Source: Coriolopsis trogii (Eukaryota > Basidiomycota > Agaricomycetes > Polyporales > Polyporaceae). Taken from it: 64,000 bases of DNA. The stretch spans positions 1,337,001 through 1,401,000 of the forward strand of contig JAHYIO010000005.1 of NCBI GenBank assembly GCA_020543525.1, in the 5' to 3' direction. The notes beneath the pieces are model-generated. The model worked only from the letters and a program-made list of their open reading frames with translations, ran no database searches and had not been told where the DNA came from. The position numbers and the translations under genes are program-made. Shown here in pieces: positions 2,259 through 48,874 of this stretch; positions within the stretch are counted from its first letter, which is position 1, and each line of letters opens with the position of its first letter.

Positions 2259-5200
2259 ATGGGAGACGTCAAGATCGACTCGATCCCTATCCTTTCTTCG
2301 GCGAACCAGTACAATGACTGGGCTGCAAAGCTCAAGGGGTACTTCATCTTCATGGGCTGTTGGGAGATTGTCGAAGGCACCAAGACTGAGCCCTCTCCTG
2401 CCGGTACTACTGCCACTGCGGCGGAGTTAGTCGCCATAGAGGCATGGCAGAAGCTCAATGGGCAGGCTCGCGGCATGATGTATATGCGGGTCTCACCGAA
2501 CTTCCACTACGTCCTCGATGCGAAGGTTCTGGGTCAAGGTGGTGCTGCTCCTCGTACCATGACAGCCGCTGAGACCTGGGCCGCCATCAAGACGAAGTTT
2601 GGCACGCCCAACAGTGCTCACGTCTGGGGCATGTTCGAGTCGCTCGTTGCAGAGCCTCGCATGAACGATTCGAAGCCTCTCCAGGACCAGATGATGAAGA
2701 TCATCAACCGCCTTCGCGACATCGATAGCAACGGCGTCAAGCTCAGCGAGACCATGCAGGCTCTCCTGTTGCTGTCGAAGGTCCCCGAGTCCTACCAGTC
2801 CATGGTTTCTGCGCTAATGGCTATTACGGACATCGACAAGGTCACCCTCGACGACATCCAGTCGAAGACCTTGGCCGAGGAGTCATTGCGCAAGAACGGA
2901 CAGTCCGCCAACAAGGTCTCCCAGACCAAGCCGAAGCCTAAGGGTCCTTGCTCCTTCTGTGGCGGTAGTTCTCACCACGAGTCCAACTGCTACAAGAAGC
3001 ACCCAGACAAGCGTCCCAAGGGCAAGAAGAAGGAGAAGGAGAGGGATAAGGACAAGGACAAGGGGAAGAACAAGGACACTACTTCTCATAGCCATGCACA
3101 TGTCGTCTCTGAGTCTGTATCTGCTGTAAACGTACTTTCGGGTCCCTTGAACATCGCTGCTTCTTTCTATGATGAGGCTATGGCCTCGGACAGCTCGAAG
3201 TGGACCATGTGGCTTATGGACTCAGGAGCCTCTCAACATATCACCGGCGACATGTCTGACTTTTCTACCTACCAGCCTTTCGAGACCACTGTTCCCTTTG
3301 GAACGGCTGCGTCAGGTGAAAGTAGTGTTATCCATGCGCTTGGATCGGGAACGGTTGAAGGGATCGCGTACATCGATAATCAGAGCGTCCCAGTCACCTT
3401 CAACAACGTCTACTACATCCCGCATGTGGAAGGTCGTCTTTTCTCGACGGGCTCCATCGAGCGCAATGGTTATTCCTTGTTCCAAGGCGAAGGTCGCATG
3501 TGTATCTTTGACAAGCTACCTGATGGTGCTGTCAAACATGGTTCGATGATTCGTATCATGGGTCGAAAGATCCTTGAGGCGAGGTACAACCCGAATAGCA
3601 ACACGTACTGGACGCTCCTCGAACTCCGTAATGGTCAGCGTGTCCACCTCAATGTCCGTCGCTTCAAGACCTGGCATCGTCGCTTTGGTCATGCGGGCAA
3701 GGATGTGGTACGTCATCTTCCTAAGAACACCAAGGGAGTTGATGCCGTTGATCATGCGGATGAAGAGCCATGTGACGGATGTGCCTTTGGCAAATCCACT
3801 CGCGCCCCCTTTCCACCTTCTGAGAAGCGTGCGACTGAAGTTCTCGAGCTCATCCATACAGATCTCGATGGACCGATGCGTACTCAGGCTATCGGAGGAT
3901 GGAAGTATTTTGCTGGTTTCATTGACGATTACTCTGGTCTTGCTCGCGCCTATTACCTTAAGCACAAGTCGGATGCTATCAAAGCATTCCTCGACTATAA
4001 GGCATGGGCTGAGACTCAGACCGGTAAAAAGATCAAGAAAGTCCGCTCTGATCGAGGGGGGGAATACACGTCTAGCGAGTTCAGCGAGCTTCTTCGTTCG
4101 CATGGCATCGAGCACCAGAAGACAGTTGCGGGTTCACCTCAACAGAATGGACGTGCTGAACGCTGGAACCGTACCATCACCGAGAAGGCTTTGTGTATGT
4201 TACATCAGGCTGGACTTAGTCACGGTTTCTGGCAACTTGCCATCGATGCAGCCGTTCATATCTACAATCGTCAACCTATGCGACGACACAAATGGCAATG
4301 CCCTATCACGTTGTGGGACGGCACCATACCGGACGTTTCCTACTTCCGCGTGTTTGGGTGCAAAGCCTTTGTGCATGTGCAGAAGGCGAAGCGCGAAGGG
4401 AAGCTCGACAAGAAGGCAGTCGAGATGATCTTCGTGGGGTATGAGCAGGGTTCCAAGGGGTATCGTTTTTGGAATCCGGCCACCCGCTCTATCGTCGTGT
4501 CCCGCGATGTGACATTCGATGAAGAGTCTTTCCCTGCACGAAAACTTCCTGGCAATCAACCTGTCGCCCCCAGTGATAATCCGTTTGTGAATGACCAGTC
4601 GGATGAGTCCTCGAACGACGACTCTGACTCGGTCGATCCCAACGACATCCTGGACATTCCCCTTCCCATTCCGCTTGATGTCCCACCACCGCTTGATCAC
4701 TCTGTAGACGATGATGCGCCTGAAGCACCTGCTCCAGCTAATGCCCCTGATCGTCCTCCAACACCACCGCCTGTTCCTGCTCCTCATCCTCCTCACCGTC
4801 GTGGTCGTAACAGACCAGTGGGAGATAATCAGCCTAGCATTGCTCGTGACCGTCCTCGTCGTGACAAAGCAGGCATTCCCCACCCGAGTAGGATTCAGGA
4901 CAACATCTACGGTGACGAGAACCCGGTTCATGTCGACGCTCGGACAGATCCGGATGGAGATCAGTGGGAGGCAGAGACTTTCCTCGCTTTTCTCGCTGCT
5001 GCTCAGTCGAAAGCTGGTATTCCTCAATCCCACAAGGAGGCCATGTGATCGCCTGATGCTCCTAAGTGGCGCGAAGCTGAGAAGTCGGAGTATGACTCGC
5101 TCATCGAGAACAGGACCTGGGTACTTGTTCCTCGTCCTAAAGGTCGACACGTCGTCTCAAACCGCTGGGTTTATGACATTAAACATGATGGGCGGTATAA

Positions 5201-6563
5201 AGCTCGTCTTGTTGCTCGCGGTTTTACTCAAGTATGGGGTGAGGACTATCACGAGACGTTCTCTCCGGTTGCGCGGTTCGAGTCTATCCGGTATCTTCTT
5301 GCGCATGCTGCGCTTGAGGACTGGGACATCGAATCTATGGATGTCAAGACCGCGTTTCTGAATGGCGATCTCGAAGAGGAGATCTACATGGAACAGCCCG
5401 AAGGCTGGGTCGTTCCTGGGAAGGAAGACCACGTCTGTCTGCTCAAAAAGGCTATCTATGGTCTTAAACAGGCGTCGCGTCAATGGAATGCGAAGATTCA
5501 TCAGTCGCTTCTTGACTTGGGATTCCAACGGACCTATTCTGATGCCGGGATCTACGTATATCGGCGACAAGGGGGGGAACACGTAACAATTGTCGTACTC
5601 TATGTCGACGATCTACTTCTCATTGGCGATCAGTCTAGTCACATCAAGCACGTCAAGCGCTCTCTCTCTAAGCAGTACAAGATGACGGACTTGGGACCAG
5701 TCAAGCGCTTCCTTGGTCTTCGCATCACTCGAGATCGTTCTACTCGAACACTCGACATCGACCAGGAAGAGTATATCCAGTCTGTCCTTGAGCGTTTCCA
5801 GATGGCTGACTGTAAACCGTCGCGTACTCCTCTCCCTGCTGGTGCTGTTTTGGTGAAAACCGATCAGCCCGCTTCCGATTCATTCAGGCAACGCTACCAG
5901 AGTCTTATTGGCAGTCTTTTGTACGCCATGCTCGGGACGCGCCCTGATATTGCTTTCGCTGTCACACGGTTATCCAAGTACAATGCCAATCCCTCTGAAG
6001 CGCACATGAACTATGCCAAGTATGTCCTGCGTTACCTTCAGGGAACAAAGGCGTACCGGCTGCGCTACAAGGGAGCGTCTAATGACGGTCTGATTTCGTA
6101 CTCAGATTCGGACTGGGCGGAAGACCGTGATGATCGGCACTCAACCTCTGGCTTTGTCTTCTTGATGGCAGGTGGTGCTGTATCGTGGGCATCGAGGCGT
6201 CAGCCTACCATTTTGCTCTCCTCGACCGAGGCGGAATATAAAGCGGCCTCCGACACTTGTCGTCAGTTGGCATGGCTGAGGACCTTCGGCAATGAACTCG
6301 GAGATGACGTGACTGATCTGACGCCTTTGTGTCTCGACAACCAAGGCTCGATCTTCTTGTCTGTCAATCCAGTCATTGACCGTCGTACCAAGCACATAGA
6401 GATCCGTTATCACTTCATTCGTGAACAGGTCGAGATGGGATCTGTCGAGATCTACTATGTCGCTTCTGAGGACCAATTGGCCGACCCCCTCACGAAGAAC
6501 GTGCCTTACTCCAATCAGGCCAAATTCGTTGAGGAGATAGGTCTTGTGTCCGTTGCATCTTGA
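2259..6563 (+). pseudogene. Copia-1 gag-pol polyprotein, one in-frame TGA
   Basis: One frame of about 1,434 codons from ATG 2,259, the first in-frame ATG. Visible domains in order: gag; zinc knuckle C-x2-C-x9-C type CSFCGGSSHHESNC near residue 231; aspartic protease DSGAS near 321; GAG-pre-integrase with WHRRFGHAG near 470; integrase core with HTDLDG, FIDDYSG and NGRAERWNR (about 533-632); reverse transcriptase with YVDD near 1,115; RNase H with SDSDWAED, STEAEY and DIRYH-like EIRYHFI. The frame is broken once, by TGA at 5,046-5,048 (codon 930) between integrase and reverse transcriptase, with normal coding sequence right after it. With matching LTRs this is either one recent inactivating mutation or a read-through stop. 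All catalytic motifs are present. Confidence 0.93.
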
Positions 6564-6574: not shown

Positions 6575-7141
6575 TGTTGACATTCTGGATTTACGGCTCT
6601 ACCGGTCCGGAGTTGTGCACACAACCTTTGTATGGTCATGTTTACCTATGTTTAGATAGCGCTTACTATAGGCTGTGTTTCTACTTACCATATACGGTTT
6701 TCTCTACGAAACTACTGTACATTCCCATGACCATATGGTTCCCTTGTCTTCCTGTGCATTCTACAATGCACCGGAACATTCTAGACCTTATGTCTTACTC
6801 AGAATACTCTCGGCTCTTACTCATATGCCGAGTACGGACTCTTACTCATCGCTCTATGGTTAACATGTGACTGCTTCATTCGCTTACTCATGCACTCCTC
6901 TCTCCAGTATATAAGGCAGTCTGTTTGCCCCTCTGCTCTTCAGTCGTTCGCTCACTGACTGAAGAGTAAGTCTCACTCATTACTTATGCTCTACTACACT
7001 TTACTTACTAGTACTTGTAGTCTCTCTTTGTGTGACTTACAGGTACTAAACTATGCAATATAGTCGTTCGCTCACTGACTGAAGATCTCTCTTTGTGTGA
7101 CTTACAGGTCGCTCCAAGCCTTCCAGGTTCAGAGTTCATCA
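6575..7141 (+). repeat. Copia-1 3' LTR
   Basis: 567 bp, read as identical to the 5' LTR at 639-1,205, with the same TATA box (6,908-6,914) and internal duplications. It is followed by AGTGG (7,142-7,146), the right copy of the target duplication. Confidence 0.95.
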
Positions 7142-7146
7142 AGTGG

Positions 7147-9675
7147 AGAAGGCCGGCTTTTAGCTTGTTCCAAGGTTTCGCGGACTGGCACTTCACACAC
7201 GAAATGCAGAACCGCTCGACCTCGATGCCGAGCTTTGGCCACCAAAACCACTGGCGGATGTATTCCGAAGTGCATTGGGACCTGTAGTGTCCAATAGACT
7301 CGTGGCTCTGATCTATTATAATCTGAGTCGTGGTCCGTTTATTGAATTTGGCTCGAGGTACACATAGTACCTCATTGCCCCTATGGTTGACGGTATATAT
7401 GTACCTGTCCCAAACACAAAACGTCTTGTGCTGCTTGGGGGCCTTCAGTATCTTGCTGAAGGTCGGGTCTTTGTCGTAGTTCTTCCTGATGAAGTTTATA
7501 AACCCATTGGTTCCCTCGACGAATTGTCGAAGGGATGGTCCGCTAGCCAAGGCATCCCATACCGTAGGCATTGGCTCATTTGCCTCCTCAGGAACATTTC
7601 GTTCTTGATTTGGAAGGGTGGTACGGGCAGTCACTTTCTTGACTGCCTCTGCCATGGCATTTGCCTCCGTGGTACGCTCCTTGACCTTCATGCACAACTC
7701 TCGTTGCGCATCTCGCTTTTTGGGATCGAGACCTTCAGGATTGAGGCGCATTACACATCCGGCATGCAACTCGAGGATGCGGTTATTCGGGAGGTCATCC
7801 CACCCGGGGTCAAGCCGTACGTCTGCATTGACGTACTCCTGTATCGGATGGAACTTGTCGGCGTTGTCATTCTCGTAGTAGCGAGACAAACAGTCCGCTA
7901 CTTTGTTGTCCTTACCTGGTACTTGTACCGTGCAATCGAATCGTGCCATGCATTCGAGCCATCGAATCCGCTGATTGTTCGGGCTGGTTGCTCCCTTGAA
8001 GAACTCCAAGGCCTTGTGATCTGTTACTATGGTGAACTTGCGCCTGAGGAGCTTGTCTTCCCACTTCTTGAGGCCCTCCAGTATCACGAGTGCCTCCTGC
8101 TCGTACGTATGGTACAAGCGTTGCGCACTCGTGAACTTCTTAGATAGAAAGCCCGTGGGTCGACAAGTCTTCCACTTGGGGCTCTGACCGTACAGGGCTC
8201 CTATACCATAGATGGATGTGTCGCAAATCAGCCAGATGGGTCCCTCTTTTCGAGGATCAATCGGCTTCAGGATGAGAGCCTTGCACGCTAATGCTTTGAT
8301 CATGTCGAAGCACTTCTGGTGCAATGGACACCAGACGAATGGTCTGTCATTGTGCTCCATGTCCGAGAGTGGGGTGGTGTACGCGGTGACGTTCGGCATG
8401 AACAGCGCAAGGTAATTCACCAACCCAAGGAACCGTTGGATTTTGTGGTATGAACGGGGAGTTCGCCACTCACAAATCCTGGTCATCTTGTCTGCGTTGG
8501 CGTGGAGACCGGTGTCGTCCACAATATGCCCTAGGCAATCCATCCTCTTCAAATACAGGTCGCACTTAGCCTTGCTCAAATAGAGCTTGGCCTCCTGAAG
8601 CTTGTCAAATACAAGCTTCAGGTGCTTCTCGTGATCCTGTATTGTGTCCGAGTACATGAAGATGTCGTCCAGGTAGACATGGACAAATTGTCCAATAAAA
8701 TCCCGGAAAATTGTAGCATCAGCTGCTGAAAGGTGGCTGGCGCATTACAATCCCCTTGTTGCATGACAAGACTGACATATGTCCCAAAGGTGTAGCGAAG
8801 GTCGTCTTCCAGATGTCCTCAAGCTTGATGCATACACGTCTGACAGATCTATTTTGGATCTGTACTTGGCTCGAGCCACATCCATGTGGATTTGATCTTG
8901 GTCTGGAAGTGGGGTAACATCCTTGACAGTATTGTCGTTTTGCTGCCTGGCGTTGACTACTATTCGTAGCTTGCCATTCTTCTTCGCTACACATAGTAGC
9001 GGAGCAGCTTGAGCGGCGCTCTGCGCTTTCCACCATATCACATTGGTGTACTTCTTGATCTTCTCGAGCAACTCGGTTTTGACTGCTTTAGGGCATTGAG
9101 GCAGTTGGTACTTATACTGTTTGCTCTCGTCAATGAGGGGAATCTTGTGATTCACCTCTCGCCATGATGGTAGAATGGGTGGTGGTGGGCAAAGCATATC
9201 GTTGTACTCTGCAAACCACTTGTCCCTCAGCTTCTGAAGGTTTTCTTCATCACTTCCGGGCTTGGGCGGCTCTCTATGAGTCTTCCGAATCTGCTCGTCG
9301 TTGAGGTAATCTTGAATAATGCCTACGAACATCTGGTGTAGTCCCATAAGGTCAGGTAGACCCGACAGTCCTAGTCCAGGACCCTTTGAAGAATGAAGGG
9401 TTAGCAATGATTTTTCTGAAATGTTTGGCACGCTGACATTCACAGCGTGCCCCTGGTGTCTAACAGGTCAAGTACTTGGCTCGGCGGTCGATATAGACCT
9501 CCGAGTGTCCGGAATACTGAACGAAACGGCGCATGCACCATTCCCCTCCCCTCCCAAAGACACTAAGGACTTCGCATAGCGGGAGTGGGGAGGCTCCACA
9601 ACGAGACATTCCGCCGCAGTCCCCTATGCGCTCGGCGTGGGTTTTTTGCCTTTGCGACAAATTTGTCGCTACAGT
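7147..9675 (-). pseudogene. Gypsy pol: reverse transcriptase, RNase H and integrase N-terminus
   Basis: Minus-strand frames at 8,745-9,443 and 7,142-8,657 encode Ty3/gypsy pol. The first contains the RT fingers/palm start (CVAKKNGKLRIVVNARQ, then DQDQIHMDVARAKYRSKIDL). The active-site YLDD lies near 8,666-8,677 (VHVYLDDIF), followed by GHIVDD and FLGLVNYLALFMP of the RT connection. RNase H follows with CDTSIYGIGA, YEQEALVI and TDHKALEFF, then the integrase zinc-binding HHCC region ending CVKCQSAKPWNKLKAGLLH at the Copia-1 insertion point. A frameshift lies between 8,680 and 8,745 and stops occur upstream of 9,443. It is a dead copy. Confidence 0.88.
9668..9675. repeat. Direct repeat flanking the giant palindrome, left copy
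   Basis: GCTACAGT precedes the left end of the palindrome and recurs at 15,925-15,932 just after its right end. If one mismatch is allowed the repeat is 9 bp (GCTACAGTC/GCTACAGTG) and the two arms then start at the same relative position. This length suits an 8-9 bp target-site duplication of a DNA transposon. Confidence 0.75.
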
Positions 9676-10402
9676 CACTCGATTCAATAGGAATATACTA
9701 TATGCTGTGTCCCTCGGCGGTGCTAATGCACTGTGTGGGCGTGGCACGCGGTGCCGCACAGTCGGGTCGTGGGAACCTGTGGGGTGTTCCGCGCGGGTGG
9801 TCGGCCGGGAGGCATAGTGGTGAGCCGCGCGGACCGGGTATGGGTGAGTGATCGGGTGGTGGTCTGGGGTAGGGGTACCAGGTTATCATTGATATAGACC
9901 TGTTCTGACGACTCGGACTATCTGTAGATATCTGTACAGTGTATGTAGATATTGTAAATAGTAATCAACCATTTATTGCGCATTTTGAAGAGACACAAGG
10001 GCAGGAAAGGTGCGCCAGAGCGGTCCGGGTAGGAGGTCCGGGTGGCGGCTGGTGGTCCGGGTGACATAGGGATGCCTGCGGACACCTTGGGCGAGTTGTG
10101 GGAGCTGATTATGTTCTGGGAAACATGGTTTGAATGGCTTTTGTGGCCTGGGTAAGTAGTTCCAGCCAGCAGGAGGTGGGGGAAAGGGGTTAGCTTACCC
10201 TTGGCCAGCCGGCTTATTTGGCGGCTCGGATGGATAGCTGATATTTCTACGAGCTTATTGGATTTGGCATGGCATTCTGCAGCTGTAGAAGTGCATCTGC
10301 AAGCCAGAATGAAATGTAGTGGTGTGCGGAATAGTGAACCGAGCGGTGTTGGACCAGTGCTGTCTGATGTTCCGCGCGGTGTTTGCCAGCCAGTATAAGC
10401 AG

Positions 10403-10670
10403 TGCAGCGCGGCTGGTTGATGTATATGGTAGTGTGTACCGCGCGGGTAGTTAATGTATATAATAAGGTGTACCACGCGGCTGGCTGATATATATGATGA
10501 GGTGTACCGCGCGGCTGGCTGATGTATATGATGAGGTGTACCGCGCGGCTGGCTGATGTATATGATGAGGTGTACTGCGCGGCTGGCTGATATATATAAT
10601 ACAGTGTACCGCGCGGTTGGTTGAAGTACATGATCCGGTGTTCTGCGCGGCCAGTTGGCATACAGACTGT
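10403..10670 (+). repeat. 34-bp tandem array, left arm
   Basis: About eight units of roughly 34 bp built on ACCGCGCGGCTGGCTGAT followed by GTATATGATGAGGTGT, with a few substitutions each. The core CCGCGCGG is itself palindromic. The inverted counterpart is at 14,931-15,198. Confidence 0.85.
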
Positions 10671-11346
10671 GTAGATGGCTCAGTGGTAGTGGAACACGGC
10701 CAGTCCGCCCATAACTGATGCAATTCCTGACCCGACGGTCTGTAAGTTGGCACACATACGTCCGAATATGATCCGGACCGGTGTGCAAATTTTGGTGGTG
10801 GACCGACATGTTCTGATGGAGATGCGGCTGCTGGACCGAGCGGATGGCTCAGCAGTAGCGGGACATGGCTGGTCCGCCCATAACTACTGCAATTCCTGAC
10901 CGGATGGTCTGTAAGTTGGTATATATATGTCCAAGTATGATCCGAACCGGTGTACAAATCTTGGCGGTGGACCGACATGTTCTGATGGAGATGCGGCTGC
11001 TGGACCGAGCAGATGGCTCAGCAGTAGTGGGACATGGCCGGTCCGCTTATAACTAATGCAATTCCTGACCCGACGGTCTGTAAGTTGGCACACATACGTC
11101 CGAGTATGATCCAGACCGGTGTACAAATTCTGGCGGTGGACCGAGATGTTCTGGGCAAGATGCGGCTGCCGGACCGAGCGGGTGGCTCAGCGGTAGCGAG
11201 ACATGGCCGGTCCGCCCATAACTACTGCAATTCCTGACCGGATGGTCTGTAAGTTGGTATATATATGTCCAAGTATGATCCGAACCGGTGTACAAGTTTT
11301 GGTGGTGGACCGAAGTAGTTCGGTAGAGATGCGGCTGCCAGACCAT
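10671..11346 (+). repeat. 169-bp tandem array, four copies (left arm)
   Basis: The marker ATTCCTGAC recurs at 10,723, 10,892, 11,061 and 11,230, exactly 169 bp apart. Units alternate between two subtypes, one with ...TATATATATGTCC... and one with ...CACACATACGTCC..., so the array has a two-unit higher-order pattern. Confidence 0.93.
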
Positions 11347-12405
11347 GCGGTCGGCTCAGCCTTGGCTGGACAATCTAATCTGGCAATCTGGCGCTTATCT
11401 GACAGTCTAGATGAGCGCTTTGTAGTCACTGTATATGGTATATGCCTGTATATGTAGTGATGTCATTACTTATGAGCGCCTTTTCAACACCCAAATGCGG
11501 TAGGCCCCCAATTTGGGTGCATTCTTGGGTACTTCATAACTTTCTTAGTTCTTGGCCGATTGCCATGGTTGTGAGTGTATCAGGTGTGTAATTGGATGCC
11601 CTTTCGTATGATATACCTTGCCAGCATGTAGTGCAAAAATCTGTGGTAGATATGTGCAAATAGTATGCCAAACCACTATAAGCAGGTACCTGCTTGCTTT
11701 ACTACATGCAAGATGGGGCATAGAGCTCCATGAGCACAATACCATTATATAGTATATTACTAGGGCTTTCCAGTGCATGTTTTTGCATTGTGATACCTGT
11801 AGTATTGAGCAAGATATGGCTACTTCACATTTGGCAAGAAATGGGAGCTCTGTTTGGCTGATTATGGAAGGTAAACTAGATATTCTGCTGTTCCCCATAC
11901 ACAAACACACTTGCATAATCCAGAGCTCTCAGATTATACACATTTTGTGGCAATCTATGAAGGTTCACACACCCCCTCCTCCTCCCTCCCTTCCCATCAA
12001 ATACATCATGGTGTCCGAATTTGGCAAGATATCCCAAAACTACTCGGCACATCTTTAGATATTATACACACCCATTACTGTACAAAATTGCAGAGCTCTA
12101 ACATCTCTGCCCACAATGCTGTGTTGCATGCAATATTGTAAGAGACCAAATATTCTCAAGAGGATAGCATTACAACCAGTGCATATATTCACATGGTTCT
12201 TTTTGCACTATTTCTATATACTATGCGGCTATGTGACTCCTGATTTTTGGAGGCTTATGTGCACCCGATCTCTTAGCCATCCCTTATCTGTGTTCGCAAT
12301 AGATTGTACTATAGTATTAGATCGGGGCGGCTGATAGGTTCATATGTCTCAGATAGAGCACTCCTAGCATAGTACTACAAGATGCAAAAAACCGCCAGGG
12401 AATAG

Positions 12406-12519
12406 GGGAAGTATTTGTGAAGGTGCGTCAAATTGGTGGTTTAGCAAGGGTAGGTTTGCCATTGTGCATGTCAAAGAGCATTCGAAACACCTTTTCTCAT
12501 ATCTCCATAACCACATCAT
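12406..12519. other. Spacer at the centre of the palindrome
   Basis: 114 bp with no inverted match, between GGGAATAG of the left arm and CTATTCCC of the right arm. It contains no gene-like sequence. Confidence 0.85.
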
Positions 12520-13578
12520 CTATTCCCTGGCGGTTTTTTGCATCTTGTAGTACTATGCTAGGAGTGCTCTATCTGAGACATATGAACCTATCAGCCGCCC
12601 CGATCTAATACTATAGTACAATCTATTGCGAACACAGATAAGGGATGGCTAAGAGATCGGGTGCACATAAGCCTCCAAAAATCAGGAGTCACATAGCCGC
12701 ATAGTATATAGAAATAGTGCAAAAAGAACCATGTGAATATATGCACTGGTTGTAATGCTATCCTCTTGAGAATATTTGGTCTCTTACAATATTGCATGCA
12801 ACACAGCATTGTGGGCAGAGATGTTAGAGCTCTGCAATTTTGTACAGTAATGGGTGTGTATAATATCTAAAGATGTGCCGAGTAGTTTTGGGATATCTTG
12901 CCAAATTCGGACACCATGATGTATTTGATGGGAAGGGAGGGAGGAGGAGGGGGTGTGTGAACCTTCATAGATTGCCACAAAATGTGTATAATCTGAGAGC
13001 TCTGGATTATGCAAGTGTGTTTGTGTATGGGGAACAGCAGAATATCTAGTTTACCTTCCATAATCAGCCAAACAGAGCTCCCATTTCTTGCCAAATGTGA
13101 AGTAGCCATATCTTGCTCAATACTACAGGTATCACAATGCAAAAACATGCACTGGAAAGCCCTAGTAATATACTATATAATGGTATTGTGCTCATGGAGC
13201 TCTATGCCCCATCTTGCATGTAGTAAAGCAAGCAGGTACCTGCTTATAGTGGTTTGGCATACTATTTGCACATATCTACCACAGATTTTTGCACTACATG
13301 CTGGCAAGGTATATCATACGAAAGGGCATCCAATTACACACCTGATACACTCACAACCATGGCAATCGGCCAAGAACTAAGAAAGTTATGAAGTACCCAA
13401 GAATGCACCCAAATTGGGGGCCTACCGCATTTGGGTGTTGAAAAGGCGCTCATAAGTAATGACATCACTACATATACAGGCATATACCATATACAGTGAC
13501 TACAAAGCGCTCATCTAGACTGTCAGATAAGCGCCAGATTGCCAGATTAGATTGTCCAGCCAAGGCTGAGCCGACCGC

Positions 13579-14930
13579 ATGGTCTGGCAGCCGCATCTCT
13601 ACCGAACTACTTCGGTCCACCACCAAAACTTGTACACCGGTTCGGATCATACTTGGACATATATATACCAACTTACAGACCATCCGGTCAGGAATTGCAG
13701 TAGTTATGGGCGGACCGGCCATGTCTCGCTACCGCTGAGCCACCCGCTCGGTCCGGCAGCCGCATCTTGCCCAGAACATCTCGGTCCACCGCCAGAATTT
13801 GTACACCGGTCTGGATCATACTCGGACGTATGTGTGCCAACTTACAGACCGTCGGGTCAGGAATTGCATTAGTTATAAGCGGACCGGCCATGTCCCACTA
13901 CTGCTGAGCCATCTGCTCGGTCCAGCAGCCGCATCTCCATCAGAACATGTCGGTCCACCGCCAAGATTTGTACACCGGTTCGGATCATACTTGGACATAT
14001 ATATACCAACTTACAGACCATCCGGTCAGGAATTGCAGTAGTTATGGGCGGACCGGCCATGTCCCACTACTGCTGAGCCATCTGCTCGGTCCAGCAGCCG
14101 CATCTCCATCAGAACGTGTCGGTCCACCGCCAAAATTTGTACACCGGTTCGGATCATACTTGAACATATATGCACCAATTTACAGACCATCCGGTCAGGA
14201 ATTGCAGTAGGTATGGGCAGACCGGCCATGTCTCGCTACCGCTGAGCCACCCACTCGGTCCGGCAGCCGCATCTTGCCCAGAACATCTCGGTCCACCGCC
14301 AAGATTTGTACACCGGTCTGGATCATACTCGGACGTATGTGTGCCAACTTACAGACCGTCGGGTCAGAAATCGCACTACTTATGAGCCGACCGGCCATGT
14401 CTCGCTACTGCTGAGCTACCCCCTCGGTCCGGCAGCCGCATCTCTGCCAAAACACCTCGGTCCACCACCAAAATCTGTACACCGGTTCGGATCATACTTG
14501 AACATATATGCACCAATTTACAGACCATCCGGTCAGGAATTGCAGTAGTTATGGGCGGACCGGCCATGTCTCGCTACCGCTGAGCCACCCGCTCGGTCCG
14601 GCAGCCGCATCTTGCCCAGAACATCTCGGTCCACCGCCAGAATTTGTACACCGGTCCGGATCATACTCGGACGTATGTGTGCCAACTTACAGACCGTCGG
14701 GTCAGGAATTGCATTAGTTATAAGCGGACCGGCCATGTCCCACTACTGCTGAGCCATCTGCTCGGTCCAGCAGCCGCATCTCCATCAGAACATGTCGGTC
14801 CACCGCCAAGATTTGTACACCGGTCCGGATCATACTCGGACGTATGTGTGCCAACTTACAGACCGTCGGGTCAGGAATTGCATCAGTTATGGGCGGACTG
14901 GCCGTGTTCCACTACCACTGAGCCATCTAC
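13579..14930 (-). repeat. 169-bp tandem array, eight copies (right arm)
   Basis: The marker GAATTGC (or its variant) recurs at 13,692, 13,861, 14,030, 14,199, 14,368, 14,537, 14,706 and 14,875, always 169 bp apart; 8 x 169 equals the interval length. Subtype order from the inside is 1,2,1,1',2,1',2,2 against 1,2,1,2 in the left arm, which fits insertion or loss of one four-unit block. Confidence 0.93.
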
Positions 14931-15198
14931 ACAGTCTGTATGCCAACTGGCCGCGCAGAACACCGGATCATGTACTTCAACCAACCGCGCGGTACACTGT
15001 ATTATATATATCAGCCAGCCGCGCAGTACACCTCATCATATACATCAGCCAGCCGCGCGGTACACCTCATCATATACATCAGCCAGCCGCACGGTACACC
15101 TCATCATATATATCAGCCAGCCGCGTGGTACACCTTATTATATACATTAACTACCCGCGCGGTACACACTACCATATACATCAACCAGCCACGCTGCA
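14931..15198 (-). repeat. 34-bp tandem array, right arm
   Basis: Inverted counterpart of the array at 10,403-10,670, about eight units built on ACCTCATCATATACATCAGC and CAGCCGCGCGGT. Confidence 0.85.
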
Positions 15199-15932
15199 CT
15201 GCTTATACTGGCTGGCAAACACCGCGCGGAACATCAGACAGCACTGGTCCAACACCGCTCGGTTCACTATTCCGCACACCACTACATTTCATTCTGGCTT
15301 GCAGATGCACTTCTACAGCTGCAGAATGCCATGCCAAATCCAATAAGCTCGTAGAAATATCAGCTATCCATCCGAGCCGCCAAATAAGCCGGCTGGCCAA
15401 GGGTAAGCTAACCTCTTTCCCCCACCTCCTGCTGGCTGGAACTACTTACCCAGGCCACAAAAGCCATTCAAACCATGTTTCCCAGAACATAATCAGCTCC
15501 CACAACTCGCCCAAGGTGTCCGCAGGCATCCCTATGTCACCCGGACCACCAGCCGCCACCCGGACCTCCTACCCGGACCGCTCTGGCGCACCTTTCCTGC
15601 CCTTGTGTCTCTTCAAAATGCGCAATAAATGGTTGATTACTATTTACAATATCTACATACACTGTACAGATATCTACAGATAGTCCGAGTCGTCAGAACA
15701 GGTCTATATCAATGATAACCTGGTACCCCTACCCCAGACCACCACCCGATCACTCACCCATACCCGGTCCGCGCGGCTCACCACTATGCCTCCCGGCCGA
15801 CCACCCGCGCGGAACACCCCACAGGTTCCCACGACCCGACCGCGCGGCGCCGCGTGCCACGCCCACACAGTGCATTAGCACCGCCGAGGGACACAGCATA
15901 CAGTGTATTCTTACTGAATGGGCTGCTACAGT

Positions 15933-16675
15933 GCACCCTTGTATCTCTCCAGTCAACTACTTTCTATTTCGGCTTCGTCGACCTTTGTGTACACGGGGAT
16001 GTCGTGCTTTCCCGCGACCAATATCCGATTGTTATCCATGTCCAATATGATCTTGTTTGCGATAATGAACAGCGAACCCAGTACTATGTCGTACCGGTCG
16101 CAGTCCACTATGTTGGAGTAGTGGCAGGTCTTGATAGGTCCAACTTCAACTTGTACTTTTGTACCGTAGTTGATGTTTGTATGACTGCCCTTCGCGCCAA
16201 GCTGTAGCCCAATACGGTGCGCCAGATCTATTCGATCCGCCGCCGTGATGTACGCTACCATTGGGGATATGGCGTCCGTCGTACATCCCGAGTTGAAGAG
16301 GGCCCAAACCGGAACACCGTTAATCAAGACCTCCGCCGACAGCATTCGCTGAAGGTTCGGGTCCCAATGAGGCTGGTCCTTAGGGTCGACTAATCGTCGT
16401 ACCCGGGAATCATACAGCCACGCGTTCTTCATTGAACGCGTCGGTGTCTTCGTCGACATCATGAATGAGTGCAGTATCTTCTCTTGAGCCTCCACCTGCG
16501 CATCAACCCCGAGTCCCAGGTTGAAGAGCTCGGCATTCTCGTCGACGCACACGCGCATAGCTCCTGAGTACAATTTGTACTCGTTGTCGCCCTGGTCAGC
16601 ACCTTGTTCGACATCCTCCATGGACTCAGCATAAAGTCCGTCGTAGTTGTCGAGGTCTGAATGTGGTGGTTCCAT
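15933..16675 (-). pseudogene. Gypsy aspartic protease region
   Basis: The minus-strand frame contains VLINGVPVWALFNSGCTTDA, which aligns with the retropepsin-like active site of Ty3/gypsy elements (usually ALIDSGCTTD). The catalytic aspartate is replaced by asparagine (a G-to-A change), so this protease is predicted to be inactive. The second half IVLGSLFIIANKIILDMDNN is the usual flap/C-terminal part. The frame ends in TGA at 15,953, and normal-looking sequence continues past it across the palindrome insertion site. Confidence 0.82.
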
Positions 16676-19370
16676 CTCGTCTTGTACAGCTTCGTCTTTC
16701 GCGGAGGTTATCTCACCTCCTCCTTCGTCGTCTGCCTCCTCGCCTTCAATGCCGTCATCCCCAACAACTCATTGGGCATGGAAATGGGGCTTGAAGGGCT
16801 TCGGCTTCCCGTACATGGGACACTTTGGATCGCTCGCGAAGTGGCCCAATCCATTGCACGCGAAGCATTGGGATTGACTCATGCTGGCGCTTGGACCAGC
16901 ATAGCTGGTCGCTGTGCCGGTTGTTGTGGCCGAGGGTTTGGTTTAAACTCTCGTTTCTGTCCCTCAGGTCTCTTGATGAACGCCATCTTGGTCAGCGCGC
17001 CTTGGAATCAACGTGGAGGCGGGCGGCTAATGTGACTAGTTTGGCTGATGGGTCGATGCGCCGTGGGTCCTTGACTGTTGAAACCCTGCTGGCCCAATGG
17101 ACCGTCTCTATGCGACGACGTGCTCATTGTCGGTTGAGAGCTGACTTCCGCCGTCTTTCGTCGATACTCCATGGCCGATAGAGTCCCTTCTAAGTGAAGG
17201 GCCTCCTCGTAGATCTCTTCCAATGTCACCATGTAGGGGTCGATGTCCTTGTTGATCATGAGTGTCCTCTCAAAGTCCTTGGGCAAACACGTGAGGAATT
17301 GGTCTTGGATGACTGCTGGCATTGGAGGCTCCAGCATGCGCTAGGCATGACAATTGAGTTCCTGGTACAATCCAGCGACGCCCGTCTGAACGTCGAACTT
17401 GATATTCTGGAATTGGAACGCTGCTTGTTGGAAGGTGTCGGTGATGACAAAGCGTCAGTTCACGACTGCCTCCTCGAAGCCCTAGTATTTCTGGGGCCTG
17501 TAGGGGAACGTGACGTTGTCGTAGTACCATTCGCTGGCCTTGCCTTCCAGTGCCATTCCCAATAGATCCAGCCAGTCAGGATCCAGGTCGGGACCGACTA
17601 CACGTAACCTACAAAAGTAGGTTAACAGTTGGCTCAACCAAACATTGAATGCCGTGTCATTGTCCTTCCCGTTGTACTTGGACGGCTCGCCAGGACAGAT
17701 TCTCTTCAGGTACTCTGGTAGAGTAGGATCATCTCCTACCTCTGTTCTGATCATCATGAAGATGGTCGCGACACTGATCGTGTCACGCAAGTTGGACAGT
17801 CGTCCCCTCGGCATGGGAGGGGCTCCGTGACCAGTTGCAGTCGATATAGACTGCATCTGTTGGTTCAACCTTGCGGCAGTGGCAGCCGCATAGAATCCTG
17901 CGATCGTCGTGTGCGAGTGCGTTGGCGGTATATACGGCTGCAACGCATACATATTCGGCAGGGGCGACTGTGGATAGTATGCTTGAGCTGCCAACGCTGA
18001 TGTCGGCGACGGCTGACACGCAGTGTTTCCTGCATGTGCCGGTGGCCCTTGACTTGGTGCGGTTCTTGCGCTCATTGTCAAAGGAGTGGGCGCGGGTGGC
18101 GCAAAGCTCACCCTAGGTCGAGCCGCTCCCTGCGACTGCCCCGGTGAGCCGGCCTTGCGGGTGTCGGTGTCATGGAACCCACACTATGCGGAAGAGGCAC
18201 TAGGTGAGGGGGTGTGGGCCTCTGATCAAGGATACTCAGAGCACTCTGAGCATGTCGAGGAATGGGCTGTCGAGGGGACATGCGCTGCTGGACGGTGCTA
18301 GCCACAGACTCGTTGGCATGCCTCTGGTTATGTGAACCTTGAGGTTGTGTGAGCGCCTGGGGTCCTGGCGAAATATGAGGTCATGATGCCTCGGCCCCGT
18401 GAGATGGGTGGCTCGTCTCTTGACGAGCGGGCGCACACGTCATTGGTCTGAATTGATCTTGTTAAAGAGCTACTAGTGGTGGCTCCTATCCCGGGTGAGC
18501 CGGTCCACCTCTCGTTGGGGTCACAGGTGCACTGTGCTCTGGTCGGCCCATGCGATCCTGCGCGTCCGCAAGGTACGAACGTGGGTCAATGTCATTGGAG
18601 TGAGGAGGAAGGAGTCCTCCGTGTCGTAGGCAGTCTGCGCGCGTTGCTTCCAGAGCGCCATCCCAACCTATTTCTTGCTCGACTTCCGCTTCGTTGTCCG
18701 AGTCATCACCTTCGAACTGGATGGACTGCAACGGTTGAGCATCCTCTATTTAAGGCGCACTGATCTCGTCGTGCGGGGTGACCTCCACTTCCACTCCTTC
18801 GTGGTCGGGGTTCTCGCGCGTACTGATGTTGTAGCTGTAATGCTCCGCCAGCGACCTCAACAGCCCCTCATGATACTCGGAGCCTGCATTGTCTCTCTCG
18901 AGCACGCATTGTTGGGTCAGCGAGATCTGGAGTAGCTCGTGCAGCTGTTCCTCAGGTATGGTAACAGCTCGGCTATTAGCCGACTGGCGCTGTCTGCCAC
19001 GTCGCTCGGTGACGAACGGTGCATTTGTGGGGCCCACGGGCCTGTCCTCTGTTCGAGGCATGGCCCCAGGAAATTCCCTATGGTCCTCAGATTGTTCAGC
19101 GGAGATATTGGGGATCTGTTGAGTGTAAGGGGTCGACTGGGCGACTATGCTAAATGTCACATTACTTGCAGCGACCGCTAAGGATGGTTGTGCAGGGGAA
19201 TTAGTTCTGAACTGTAGCGTTGGAAGCCTTGAATCTTGTTCGCGCAGTTGTAGACCGGGCAAGTGCGACATGGGGGCCGTCCGCTCAGTCCGAGCGGACA
19301 CCGGTCTCGTCGCGCTGCCTTGTTGGCTAGGTGGTCTTGACATTCACACTCCTTTGGTATAGAAGTCCAC
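16676..19370 (-). pseudogene. Gypsy gag with zinc knuckle, several stops
   Basis: Minus-strand frames at 18,750-19,343, 18,486-18,731, 17,482-18,111 and 17,008-17,337 together look like one gag. The N-terminal part is rich in Gln, Ser and Thr. The capsid-like part contains PSKYNGKDNDTAFNVWLSQL and GKASEWYYDNV, the usual fungal gypsy capsid signature. A CCHC-like knuckle CFACNGLGHFASDPKC lies at about 16,820-16,867. Several in-frame stops and at least one frameshift separate the pieces. The probable start is near 19,343, just inside the candidate 5' LTR. Confidence 0.75.
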
Positions 19371-20448: not shown

Positions 20449-20668
20449 TGTTGGAGTATGACGCTTTGACGTGTCTGCTCCCTTTCGGAGTTTGTACTCC
20501 CGCTTTGTCTGCTTTAGCATGATTTCACGCTCCGCTTGTCTTCTTGTCATAGTTACGTCCCTTTGTCACTCTTGTCCTGTCTACCTAGCTTCGGTGCTTT
20601 GACCTCACACATGTACTTATACCCGTCCGGCGAGTCCTCTAATGACATCTGCATTCCCATCTCCAACA
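20449..20668 (+). repeat. Copia-2 5' LTR
   Basis: 220 bp. Differs from the 3' LTR by T/C at GACGYGTCTG and T/C at GACATYYGCATT, about 99% identity. No clear TATA box was seen; ACTTATACCC near 20,614 is the closest match. Confidence 0.92.
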
Positions 20669-20684
20669 GGTTATGAGCCCTGCG
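20669..20684 (+). other. Copia-2 primer binding site (half-tRNA initiator-Met type)
   Basis: GGTTATGAGCCCTGCG, identical to the Copia-1 site and directly adjacent to the LTR. It is complementary to the anticodon arm of initiator tRNA-Met. Confidence 0.8.
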
Positions 20685-20746
20685 TTGTTCTGACTCAGAC
20701 TAGTCTTCGCTCAGCTACTATCACCCCCTCGAATCTTATCTCCATT

Positions 20747-23224
20747 ATGTCTGCTTCTGATCTTATCTCGCGCGTCAAGATCGACCCTTTGAACGACATC
20801 AGCAATTGGCCGATATGGCAAATCAAGATATCCGATCTGCTGTGGGAGGCCGGCCTCTCGTCACTCGTCACCGGCACGAAGAAGCGCCCGGAACCGGCAT
20901 CCAAGAATGAGGATGAAAAGGTCCAGAAGGCCAGGAACAACGAGATCGAGAAGTGGGATCGTGATGATCGGACGGCGCTTATCGGCATTCGGCGGCGACT
21001 CGGCATGCGCGCGATCAAGCTCATTCAGAATTGTAAGACAAGTCACGATGCGTGGGAAAAGCTACGCAAGAACTACGAGACCCGAGGACTAAGCAAGATC
21101 ATCGAGATCCGGCGGAAGCTGCTAACGGCGATATACTCGGAGGAGGAGGAATTGGATGTGTGGCTACAGCAAATGGTGGAGTGGCGGAAGGACCTTGTGG
21201 CGCTTGGGCACGAAATACCCGACGATGAGTTCTCCATCACTCTATTGGCTGCTCTACCAGAAACGTGGCGCGCATTCACTGATGGCATTCAAGACTCCGA
21301 GATCGGAGACTGCGATAAGCTCCAAGGGAAGATCCGAGAGCACGCGCGACGCGTCAAGGCGTCTAGCGAGACGGCACTTGTGATGAAGACTCGGGGCAAA
21401 GGTCCGAAGTGCTACAGCTGCGGGAAACTCAGACATAAGAAGTACGACTGTCTGGAAAGGGACAGGGATGATAAAGGGAAGGGTCAGGGCCAAGGGCAAT
21501 TACAAGAGAAGCGCAGGGATGATCGGAACGGGAAGGGGCAAGGCGCCAAGGCCATGGTTGCCGAGGAGTCCGACAAGGACTCGGACTCGGACTACGCCTA
21601 CGCGTCCATCGAACCCGTAGACGACGCCAGCGAGGTAGCACTCACACTCCTGGCCACTGACGCCTGGTTAGCCGACTCCGCAACAACCTCCCACATCGCG
21701 CGAGAAAGACGCATGTTCTCCGACTACACGCCAACGCCGGGACGAACCCTGAATGGAGCAGGGACCACACCCATTCTGGGACGAGGAACGGTGACGTACC
21801 ATTTCAGGCACAACGACAAGGACACGACCATAACCCTACGTGACGTCATACACGCGCCGGGAGTGCCGCACAATCTTATCACTACTGGACGCGTCGAGGC
21901 CAGCGGTCACAAGATCGAACAGCGTGACGGGGCAATATTTTTCATCAATCACAAGGGGCGCCCGTACGCATCCGGCAAGCGCGTAGCCAACTTCCTATAT
22001 CATATGGACGGTGAGGTCGTATTACCTAATACAGAGGTAACCTATGCCGCCGCGGTAAGCCACCCGAGACGGAAACGGACGCTGAATGAATGGCACCGTG
22101 CTCTAGGTCACCCGGGCATGAAGGCAGTGGTGATGATGTGGCGGAAGGGTCTGGTTGTGGGAATGGAAGTCGATGAATCGGAGGTGCCGGCAGAGCAGTG
22201 CGAGGCGTGCGTATAGGGGAAGCAGGTGGTGACGTCATATCCGAAGAAGTCGGAGACCGAAGTCGAGACCATCGGAGATCTTACCGTGTTAGATACATGG
22301 GGACCAGCGTCAACTATGGGTATTCGGGGTGAGCGCTATTTTTGGGCATTCACCGACGGTCACTCCAGGCGGTCCGAGGCAGCTTTTGGGAAGCACAAGT
22401 CAGAGGCGCTCGAATACTTCAAAGCCTACAAAGCACACGTCGAGAACAAATTTGACATCAAATTGAAGAAACTTCGCTGCGACAATGGCGGCGAGTTCAT
22501 CAACGATAAGTTCCTAACGTTCTTACGTAACGAGGGCATCAAGCTCGAGACCACGGCGCCTAAGTCTTCGGCCCAGAACGGGATCGCTGAAAGGCTGTGC
22601 CGGACCCTGATGGACCGGGCCCGGACCCTCCTGATTGCTGCACAGCTTCCAAAATCCCTATGGCCGGAAGCAGTCGCTTACCTAACACATCTCAAGAATC
22701 GGCTTCCAACTAGAGCGCTCAAGGATAAGACGCCGGAAGAAGTCTGGAGCGGCCGTAAGCCAGATGTGTCAGACATCCAGGAATGGGGCTGCCGGTGCTG
22801 GGTGCTTACATCATCCGAGAAGCGGACCAAACTCGACCCTCGATCCCAGCCCATGTACTTCGTCGGCATGGCGGAAGGTAGCAAGGCCTGGCGCTACTAT
22901 GATCCCAAGGCACGTCGCATCGGAAAATCACGTAATGTCATCTTCGCCATCCCTCAGCGCGTGACGGGTGACGATGACGACGAGGACGCTCCCTCTCCAC
23001 GGCTCGACGGGGAGGGTGGCACATCAGCCCAGATCGAGCGCGAGGAGAAGGAGGCACAGCCACAGGCACCAGATGCAGGGGGAGCACCGGCATCAGCACA
23101 GCCACAGGAACCCAAGAAGCTCATGCAGGGACCAGACGCCATTGGATCTGAGATCAGCAGGCCAAGACGGAAGGCAGTAGCCGTCAGGATCAACTACAAG
23201 ACCCAAGGGGGTCGCGGGATTTAA
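20747..23224 (+). pseudogene. Copia-2 gag, protease and integrase
   Basis: Frame from ATG 20,747 (MSASDLISRVKIDPL...). Gag is followed by a CCHC knuckle CYSCGKLRHKKYDC, a protease with WLADSATTSHIA (DSA in place of the usual DSG/DTG), a GAG-pre-integrase (EWHRALGHPGMK) and an integrase core with DTWGPAS, FTDGHSRR, LRCDNGGEF and SAQNGIAERL. A TAG at 22,214 interrupts the integrase zinc-binding motif (CEACV-stop-GKQ), probably from CAG. The frame ends at 23,224 where the P-like transposon sequence begins. Confidence 0.9.
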
Positions 23225-26200
23225 GCGCTTGACCGTGGGTACATACCTACCCCCGCATGGCTGGGCTGACTTCGAAATATTCACCACCCATGTAAGCGCC
23301 AACGTGTCTGGTAGACGCCCACGCAGAGGAAGGGGAGAACGGGGAAAGCAAGGTCTCGAACTGGACCCAACATCCGTATATCAGCGCGCTTCGGGTCTCT
23401 ACTCAGTATAGATCATATTTACATGTGTGTGGACCATATAGTGGTGACTGTACGGCCCATAGATGCTATAGAATGTGAACACTTGATCAATAGAGTGAAT
23501 GTGTATATTTCCTGCTGGGTGCCGGACCACGATAGGAGCGATTTGGTGGCACAGTGCTCTCTCATCTTGTCACGACACACCGCATCACCTCGCCGACTTG
23601 TCTTGTTGTCTTGCCCGCTACTTCCACCGAGTTTGCATGGATGTATGTCATATAATCTCTCGCATTCATAAAAACCACTAATCAGGTCGCCTTACCGCCC
23701 ATTATCGCGCTCGTTGTCTAGGACCCGTCAGGGCTTGACACCCCTCATAACGGGCTCGAAGTCGATGAGGACGGCCGCATTGTCTGCCCGGATTGCAAAG
23801 TGTCAATATCAGTAGGAAAAGGCGGTGTCAATACTCTCCGCAAGCAACATATGGACTCAGAAAAATGTCGGAAGGCTCAAGCTAAGTACAATCTAGCTGC
23901 GAAGAGAGATCTACAAGCAATTCAGTTTGCTGCGTTTTTCAGCTCGTCAGCAAAGACGAGAGACGTGATCTCACCAAATGTTCGTCCATCCACTCCTATA
24001 GTCCCTGTCACTCCTTCGGGCCCTTCTGCCGTCAATCTGTCACAAACCCGGGGAAGCATCGAAGTGTCAGGGGTTTCGGAGCCATCACATACCCCCCATA
24101 TCCTCCGAGGCCTACGGAAGACTATCGAGGCAATCCCATTGTCTGTTCCCGAAGCCACGGATGGCAATCTCTTTTTTCCATTTGCGAATGCAGAGCCTCA
24201 GGCCGGTCTCACTGATGATGAAGCTTGGGAGACCCTCGATCCGATCCTCAACCGGGTGATTGGCTACAATACAACAGTGGACACTCTGGTGGATAGTGTG
24301 CAGTGAGGGGAGAAGGGGGTCATGGCAATCTGCGAGTATATAGAGAGATGGGTTGAGCGGTATCAAGTCGACGAGTGCTTGTTGGAAGGAAAAGTGAACA
24401 GACTTATCGCGGCTATCCATGTTGTGTGAGTACTCCACATCTCATCGAAAGAATACCACTTAGCAAAGGTATCTAGCTGTGCACAATGCGGAGATCGCGC
24501 ATTGTCGGAACAGCATTGTACATCCTTGCCCTCGAAAGACTTCCCGGCCGTCACAGCTGTCCGCGCTCCAAACACTACATCCCAACATGTTTATCAGAAT
24601 ACGACGAGGGTGCCCTGCCAGGGATTCAGTCTTACCTTTCCTCCTGGATGCACAGCCAACTCCGCGTACCCCTTCTTACTTCATGATCTACGTGCACTGC
24701 CTTGGGACTACGAGCTATGCAACGGCACATTCGCGATCTGCTCACACGAGTGCTCTGGGACTATCAGCAAAACTCAAGGCTCTGGGACGTCCTGTCTGTC
24801 GTGTATGTCGCTATAGAACAACAGCCTTCTCGATGGTATCCTACAACGCATCAAAGATGGTGTACACCAGAACACCCCGTATGCCTACTATGGGATAGGA
24901 GGGCTCGCACAGGTTGCTCGTCACAAGACAGACATCATTGACGTCCTTCGCCTTGCCAAGCTGAACATCGCACGAAAGGTTGTGCGTCTCGAGGGCTCCC
25001 TTGATGCGCACAAACAGGTCGTCTCAGCGATTGCATCCAATCGCATACCTCGAGTGGATCGAGTCCTGCGCGCAAGCTTTAGGCGTGGCTCGGGGATGTA
25101 CGGAACGCTCTTGCTCCTCCAGAAGGCCATGGTTGGGACATACAAGCCGAAGAGCTTTAACGAGCAAGACGAGATGCAAGCCCTCCTCTTCCTCCGCCTA
25201 GGCAGTGCACGAGTAGCTGAGATAGCTCACCGAATGTTTGGTACACCAGCTGCCTCCACTGTTCGACGCCATGCTGCCACCCTTATCCTCCATCCCTCCT
25301 CGGCCTTCCCAACCTTTGCTGAGGTAGTAGCGAACATCGATGCTAGTTTCCATCCTCTCGAGGGTGCGCTTCTAGGTGTGCTATCGGGACAGCGCAGCGA
25401 GAAGTACCACGCGGTTGCTATGTTCGATGAGATTGCAGTGGAGAAACGGCCGAGGTGGGACGACAAGTCGAACAAGCTTCTAGGCTTCGGGCGAGAGTGT
25501 GTGTCCAAAAAGAGGACCCAGTTAGAGTTCTCAAGTATGCAGGATCTTGATATAATATTCGAGGAGTTGGACGGAGGAGAGATACACCTCGCTTCAGAGG
25601 TGAGTGTTGTACGCGTTTAGCCGCAGAAACCTTCTCATCACGTGTATGCAGGCAACTGTGGGCGCCATTGGATTGCTCACCTCCAATGCGCGACTCTACG
25701 CTGCTCGTCCTGTGTTACTTTCAGGCAGCTGCAAGCACGAAAGTGCCAGTGAGCATGCCCAGCTCCTGCGAGTCTTTCTCAATGCCACATCCTCCCGTCA
25801 GAGCCTCACGCATGCCCGAATTGTCTCGATTGCCTCGGACGGTAAAGCAAGGCGAGGTAAGGCCCTCGTTGAGCTCACATATAAGCAGCCACTGCATGTC
25901 ACATCTCCACTCTATGCGTATCTGTCACCACTCTCTCTTATGGACCTATGGGTCGGAGACGACGATCTGACCGCAGACAAGGACTACAAACATGTCATCT
26001 TCAAGCGCATACGAAATTCGCTCCTCCGAGAAAAGGGAGTTGAAGTCAATGGAGTCCTCCTAACTCCCGCACGTATCCGTCGCCATCTTCGTGACTCAGG
26101 ACATCCTGCTGAGCACCTTCGTTCACTCTTCAAGCCAGATGACAAGCAGGACGTCGAGCTCTCATACTTATTCCTCCGTGATCTCTGGTCTCTGGGTCCG

Positions 26201-29200: not shown

Positions 29201-29246
29201 ACATCATTATGTCCTTTTTAGGATAGGCGCTCGCTTACATACCTAC
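23225..29246 (+). mobile_element. P-element/THAP9-like DNA transposon inside Copia-2
   Basis: The segment between the two halves of Copia-2 carries one multi-exon transposase gene. Candidate boundaries are marked by an 11-bp direct repeat TACATACCTAC at 23,240-23,250 and 29,236-29,246. The two ends can also be paired as imperfect inverted repeats (GTGGGTACATA with GTAGGTATGTA). Neither option gives a clean target duplication that restores the Copia-2 frame, so the exact termini remain open. The flanks 23,251-23,636 and 29,153-29,235 hold no other gene that I can recognise. Confidence 0.65.
23637..29152 (+). pseudogene. P/THAP9-like transposase with BED-like and PHD fingers, four nonsense codons
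   Basis: A continuous frame emerges once short introns are removed (23,643-23,685; 24,426-24,476; 25,600-25,651; 27,747-27,809; then near 28,411-28,460, 28,736-28,791 and 29,009-29,077), each in phase. Visible: a BED-like finger (CPDC...H...C) near the start; the P/THAP9-type motif AVAMFDEIAVEKRPRW with its aspartate-glutamate pair; a second acidic site IASDGKARRG; and GTDRLESLFGILRT with the late glutamate. C-terminal zinc fingers (CCPKC; CPLC...H...H) follow, then an acidic linker and an ING-like PHD finger (CLCG, IIGC...C, FHLDCVGL, WICEAC) before a basic tail. In-frame stops at 23,719, 24,304, 24,814 and 27,080 inactivate it. The superfamily assignment is by motif only. Confidence 0.7.

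Positions 29247-45439: not shown

Positions 45440-48874
<3,435 letters not shown>

Follow-up and report, generated by a model that had tools for sequence, protein, structure and literature searches.

The 64,000-nucleotide stretch of the Coriolopsis trogii genome analysed here (contig JAHYIO010000005.1, positions 1,337,001 to 1,401,000; hereafter the window) harbours a palindromic element of 6250 bp, located at 9676-15925 and bounded by the outer letters CACTCG...GGGCTG. We consider it very probable (roughly 0.86) that this foldback element is a non-autonomous derivative of the Kyakuja group of Kyakuja-Dileera-Zisupton (KDZ) transposons, mobilised in trans. It would be a gene-less cut-and-paste DNA transposon, built as two long inverted arms, that has kept both ends and the subterminal CCGCGCGG ladder seen in Kyakuja copies elsewhere in this genome. 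A KDZ transposase, as from long copies that also carry a TET/JBP dioxygenase gene, would bind the termini and the ladder, require one terminus of each of two types (A and B) and move the foldback in trans, 7-bp target site duplications (TSDs) being the result. The evidence read from the letters themselves comprises the insertion with its 7-bp TSD and related empty sites, the termini in common with the long copies, the asymmetry between A and B ends, the ladder, and the KDZ and TET/JBP genes of the long copies.

Alignment of the arms and inspection of the flanks defined the element. The left arm measures 2747 bp (9676-12422, plus strand) and the right arm 3423 bp (12503-15925, minus strand), in agreement with the 2.7 and 3.4 kb given in a preliminary description of this DNA, and the loop between them is 80 bp (12423-12502) instead of the 114-bp centre proposed there. 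Self-alignment gave 98% complementarity between 10665-12422 and 12503-14260, at a spacing of 80 bp, and 94% between 9682-11372 and 14229-15919. From outside to inside, each arm consists of an outer part of ~1 kb closing in 34-bp tandem repeats (10395-10666, plus, and 14916-15221, minus; 7.2 copies per side), a block of 169-bp tandem repeats (4.1 copies at 10665-11372, plus; 8.1 copies at 13553-14936, minus) and an inner arm of ~1.05 kb (11373-12422, plus; 12503-13552, minus). Tandem subrepeats, which had been noticed before, thus form part of both arms, and because their numbers differ between the two sides the arms are unequal in length. The arms had also been described as non-coding: two of the six stop-to-stop frames of at least 150 aa lying wholly within the element were scanned and gave no Pfam match at E<=0.01, in line with that description for these two. 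No RNA family was found in 9669-15932 at E<=1.

The element splits one minus-strand gypsy retrotransposon between the protease (15953-16768; RVP_2, 6.9e-05) and the segment encoding the reverse transcriptase, the RNase H and the integrase zinc-binding domain (7008-8744). Its flanks are contiguous in two gypsy paralogues on contig C1, which constitute related empty sites, and the target stretch is single in both (CGACAGC at C1:483498-483504 and CAACAGC at C1:760799-760805), each time two bases off the CTACAGT that borders the element at 9669-9675 and 15926-15932. Since the flanks are contiguous and the target stretch is single in the paralogues, the element is an insertion and not an inversion, as had been concluded from the way the flanks rejoin into gypsy. 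The empty sites alone are equally compatible with a duplication of 7 or 8 bp. The letters of the 8-bp direct repeat GCTACAGT reported initially are present; its G, however, is the last base of the element, and comparison with the other copies sets the TSD at 7 bp. Among the ten copies with both ends, the 7-bp TSD is exact in eight, has one mismatch in C30 and six in C4b, whereas all 90 cross-element flank pairs had at least two mismatches. If the termini are placed as here, alternative lengths of 4-6 and 8-10 bp fit none of the ten copies, so the 8-9 bp duplications anticipated for other copies were replaced by 7 bp.

The genome searched comprises 38.8 Mb, and every genome count given here is a lower bound. 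The outer arm matches at least 23 places. At least five are foldback copies at different places, in line with the expectation of copies with other flanks: the window element (6250 bp), C25 (4165 bp), C4b (5154 bp), C9 (3936 bp) and C4a. Six others are long copies, five of which have both ends and span 19.9 kb (C36), 20.7 kb (C30), 20.8 kb (C4c), 27.25 kb (C4d) and 34.5 kb (C4e) from end to end; for the sixth, C2, only the A end was found, and C4f is a partial copy. Neither the 169-bp repeat nor the inner arm was found in the genome outside the five foldback copies. The lack of any other copy, or a single satellite array uniting them all, had been named as grounds for giving up the element; at least five foldbacks exist, and a satellite origin was rejected, the 169-bp repeat having been found only in them. 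The assignment to the foldback class is supported by three features: very long inverted repeats make up nearly the whole of 9676-15925, the arms are partly tandem subrepeats of variable number, and the insertions are dispersed with target duplications (exact 7 bp in four of the five foldbacks, C4b being the exception). The initial view of a foldback-type insertion is further supported by coding relatives with the same termini, which make a KDZ transposase of Kyakuja type the likely enzyme.

Long palindromes can arise as library artefacts, and an assembly artefact, or a local inversion involving no mobile element, might be invoked for the whole structure. One copy lends itself to this interpretation. 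C4a has its B end at C4:1411841, its A end at C4:1417987 and the TSD ATCCCAG. Its left arm comprises only 120 bp of B arm, after which the right arm and 1197 bp of the right flank are repeated in inverted orientation. The duplicated flank is identical at 1197/1197 positions and the arms show one mismatch across their first 2357 positions; up to the loop, arms and flank thus differ by one base, which an artefact could equally produce. In the window, however, the arms differ from each other, being 94-98% complementary and unequal in repeat number, which argues against an assembly mirrored from one strand; moreover, five copies lie at separate places, four with 7-bp duplications, and related empty sites exist. 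We therefore regard an artefact or an inversion as scarcely credible for the element, although an artefact may explain C4a itself. The B-arm break of C4a falls within a CCGCGCGG motif, and the copy looks like the product of a repair or replication event in which copying of the right arm ran outward beyond its terminus. We infer that foldback arms owe their continued likeness to gene conversion or template switching, with C4a as a caught example; this copy may then show, in mid-act, how foldback arms are copied from each other.

The long copies carry the genes that the foldback lacks. On the minus strand of C36 we identified a KDZ transposase exon (PF18758, 4.1e-25), a CxC2 cysteine cluster (PF18803, 1e-22; searched in C36 only) and a TET/JBP dioxygenase exon (Tet_JBP PF12851, 7.4e-12). 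KDZ and TET/JBP matches lie inside all six long copies (C36, C30, C4c, C4d, C4e and C2), which hold six of the nine TET/JBP matches of the genome and six of the seven over the cut-off, and in all six both genes are closer to the A terminus. Across a 5.8-kb transposase region, C36 has 98-99% identity to the three copies compared (C30, C4c and C2). The terminal inverted repeats (TIRs) of the long copies are ~947 bp, with 95-96% identity between the A end of C36 and the B ends of five long copies. In a protein search with the KDZ exon, two of 31 PF18758 proteins were named Kyakuja-Dileera-Zisupton transposase. Twenty open reading frames of C36 were scanned, with Pfam matches in three of ten in one set and none over the cut-off among the ten of the other; none was a Mutator match, and no genome search aimed at Mutator families was made. 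The KDZ transposase is thus present in the coding copies and absent, as a Pfam match, from the scanned frames of the foldback. The preliminary description had argued that another element must supply the transposase and had advised a search for an autonomous relative with the same terminal sequence; the long copies with KDZ and TET/JBP genes have that sequence and are the likely source within the same genome.

In all ten copies with both ends, the outer borders are one A and one B terminus. The A end reads CACTCGATTCAATAG..., with small variants, and the B end CAGCCCATTCAGTAAG.... In the window, end comparison located the A-type terminus and a ~195-bp terminal module common with the Kyakuja copies at 9676-9870 (plus), with CCGCGCGG or one-off matches near element positions 114 and 150, and the B-type terminus (CAGCCCATTCAG...), with a ~195-bp module common with the Kyakuja B ends and three CCGCGCGG-like sites, at 15731-15925 (minus). 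Comparison of the two ends of each copy gave 5-9 differences between A and B in the first 24 bp and 1-17 in the next 576 bp (nine copies; C4a, with its 120-bp B arm, was left out). Homogenised arms with unlike termini suggest that the two ends do different jobs and that homogenisation spares the terminus. Genome-wide, the terminal patterns occurred 10 times (B) and 14 times (A), and never in reversed controls. One further exact A terminus, at C4:1438808-1438827 on the minus strand, has only 29 bp in common with the family; no partner terminus was found for it, two CGCGCGG pairs lie ~5 kb away at C4:1433513-1433587, and it may mark a further non-autonomous element whose minimal end is the same.

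The likeness of the ends has a sharp inner border. B ends were compared between four foldbacks (C4a, with its short B arm, was left out) and five long copies. Over the outer 195 bp, foldback and Kyakuja differ at ~10 positions (~95% alike) and foldbacks among themselves at ~11; over positions 196-600 the numbers become 136/405 and ~24/405. The A ends have the same ~195-bp border. The divergence at 196-600 bp shows no indel in the alignment, and its mismatches are without codon phase, which disfavours coding by the arm beyond 195 bp. Among foldback B ends the divergence is 6.2% and 5.9% on the two sides of the border, and strong constraint alone, considered as its cause, is disfavoured by this near-equality. 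The border would be explained if the Kyakuja and foldback lineages had exchanged the terminal module, and such swapping may be part of the history of the element.

These ends also bear on the possibility that the foldback belongs to another superfamily (Mutator-like as Tm1, P-like as Galileo, or hAT) and resembles Kyakuja ends by convergence. Published foldbacks with an identified enzyme use that of Mutator (Tm1, PMC3169594) or P (Galileo, PMC3573991) according to these sources, Galileo copies are likewise bounded by 7-bp sequences (PMC3573991), and the transposase family covered by our genome searches was KDZ. However, over 195 bp the ends are ~95% (B) and ~91% (A) like those of copies carrying a KDZ gene, with the same A/B asymmetry and with a ladder in register. 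Convergence of this extent seems highly unlikely to us.

The ladder is formed by the CCGCGCGG palindrome, which recurs at intervals of about 34 bp in subterminal DNA, in the foldbacks and the long copies alike. The window element contains 14 occurrences (0.10 expected), seven per outer arm, and none lies in the remaining 57,736 bases of the window; the 34-bp repeats of both arms carry the motif, on the left as CCGCGCGG or near matches. In C36, 17 and 19 occurrences fall in two subterminal stretches of ~1.9 kb, six in the 15.5-kb interior and three in the final 658 bp on the B side. Spacings of 32-36 bp account for 16/21 and 26/32 intervals in C36, 12/20 in C25, 10/18 in C9 and 6/15 in C4b. The motif positions of the foldback C25 (79, 114, 150, 697, 764, 832 and 866) are within one base of those of the Kyakuja copy C4c (79, 114, 150, 696, 763, 832 and 866). 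CGCGCGG pairs 33-35 bp apart were found 180 times on the plus and 181 times on the minus strand of the genome, mostly at the same sites, against 4 and 9 in the reversed control; 95 of the 100 places listed in contig order fall in the copies described here. We infer from this recurrence that the ladder is a set of candidate transposase-binding sites.

Several observations weigh against a Kyakuja derivation of the foldback. Foldback and Kyakuja are ~34% different over ~196-600 bp, so the foldback may have a parent other than the long copies present today. The A ends are less alike in their outer 195 bp than the B ends, with ~18 differences between foldback and Kyakuja and ~13 between foldbacks. 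For the 169-bp repeat and the inner arm, comparison with pieces of the long copies and searches of the rest of the genome gave no match. Because the foldback ladder lies mostly in 34-bp tandem repeats, tandem duplication accounts for part of its motif count; in C4b and C9 only six exact CCGCGCGG motifs each are left. C4b is without a matching TSD. Finally, the name 'Kyakuja' is applied here on the basis of TSD length, termini and TET/JBP content, and the two Laccaria families described as lacking TIRs (PMC12730594) contrast with the ~950-bp TIRs found here, although a lack of TIRs is not clearly a defining trait of the group.

Substitutions at the A ends carry a possible trace of methylation. 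Ten pairs of the five foldback copies gave 324 transitions and 28 transversions, and 15 pairs of six Kyakuja A ends gave 234 and 59, the pairs being non-independent in both sets. Among assignable transitions, 132/310 in the foldbacks are at CpG, which represents 20% of C contexts, and 100 at CpA (28%); in the Kyakuja ends 146/206 are at CpG (26%). CpG transitions account for 12 of the 18 one-off CCGCGCGG variants. This pattern fits deamination of methylated CpG. It is conceivable, though we consider it rather doubtful, that the KDZ transposase binds the CpG-rich CCGCGCGG array in a methylation-sensitive way and that the transposon-borne TET/JBP dioxygenase unlocks it, with foldbacks competing for or profiting from the same switch; if true, this would amount to a self-demethylating transposon with foldback relatives. 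CpG-rich sites here lie beside a transposon-borne TET/JBP gene, a kind of gene whose function is termed 'not experimentally validated' in the text of PMC12730594.

The foldback could also be more than a passenger. Its arms pair across kilobases and its terminal 195 bp are close to Kyakuja, so read-through transcripts might form a duplex including this terminal segment, and the foldback might then serve as a source of hairpin RNA silencing Kyakuja. By its sequence such an element looks no different from a plain passenger, and the idea is compatible with the derivation from Kyakuja preferred here; we think it unlikely, less so than convergence of the ends.

Further relatives were encountered in the genome. 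Inside C4e (C4:2136866-2171351), a second KDZ domain at C4:2143374-2143748 has scores identical to C6:736855-737229; an element of another KDZ family is probably nested in C4e and may account for its 34.5 kb. In C36, a 75-bp tandem repeat of 6.4 copies (L029:6253-6734) lies within the open frame L029:5941-7215, whose product, a repetitive cargo protein, matched no family over the cut-off. Upstream of the foldback C4a, C4:1390596-1405848 is a degraded relative of the long copies, with end fragments at 1390596-1390965, a KDZ match at 1402844 with two in-frame TGA codons and a TET/JBP match at 1405480 with one TAG. At C8:1024871-1025251 and C8:1027450-1027824, a TET/JBP-like match just under the cut-off stands next to a further KDZ locus; the two probably represent a second KDZ family with a TET gene. 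More KDZ loci (C20:1117096, C25:400705, C3:2990866, C30:2257429, C7:469457, C36:462857 and C6:736855) have stronger PF18758 matches than the family of TET/JBP-carrying long copies. The window itself also contains Copia-type retrotransposon genes (gag, integrase, RVT_2) at 1710-6563 and 20603-30712, both on the plus strand, and a helicase piece (Helicase_C, HA2_N), perhaps of a host gene, at 46493-47731 on the minus strand.

Kyakuja elements of Laccaria have a 7-bp TSD and 5'-CA..TG-3' termini, and KDZ transposons of this type carrying TET genes are described from Agaricomycotina (Kojima 2025, PMC12730594); giant KDZ elements are known from Ectocarpus (PMC12477816). The elements studied here agree with Kyakuja in the 7-bp TSD (exact in 8/10 copies), in the 5'-CA..TG-3' ends and in the KDZ transposase and TET/JBP genes of the long copies, and differ in having gene-less foldback derivatives. 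The words 'foldback' and 'subterminal' do not occur in the text of PMC12730594, supplements apart. The 8-bp TSD given there for Zisupton and a Dileera fits 0/10 copies, the window copy alone being readable as 8. That text gives no binding sites for KDZ or Kyakuja transposases, for which the unlike termini and the ladder offer a testable guess. We found no KDZ foldback in the literature searched, most subscription papers and supplements being beyond reach.

Among foldbacks of other hosts, Galileo (P superfamily, Drosophila; PMC3573991) is described with a foldback-like structure, long internally repetitive TIRs, TIR-only copies, 7-bp target sequences and some copies without a matching TSD, all as seen here, and its tandem repeats were likewise proposed as additional transposase-binding sites; its transposase superfamily and its animal host are different. 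Tm1 of root-knot nematodes (Mutator/foldback; PMC3169594) also combines foldback-like composite TIRs with transposase-coding relatives, but its transposase is of Mutator type and its 9-bp TSD fits 0/10 of our copies. In Tetris of Drosophila virilis (PMC4079207), an outer domain, ~220-bp tandem repeats and an inner domain correspond to the outer arm, the 169-bp repeats and the inner arm; in contrast, its TSD is 8-10 bp, no autonomous partner was found for it, and its repeats also occur as satellite-like arrays, whereas the 169-bp repeat was found only in foldbacks. On this evidence, the window foldback would have the layout of Tetris and Galileo with a different enzyme class. To our knowledge, Galileo has no TET/JBP gene. 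For some foldbacks, such as Tetris, the mobilising enzyme is unknown in print (PMC4079207); for the foldback described here, a probable source lies in the same genome.

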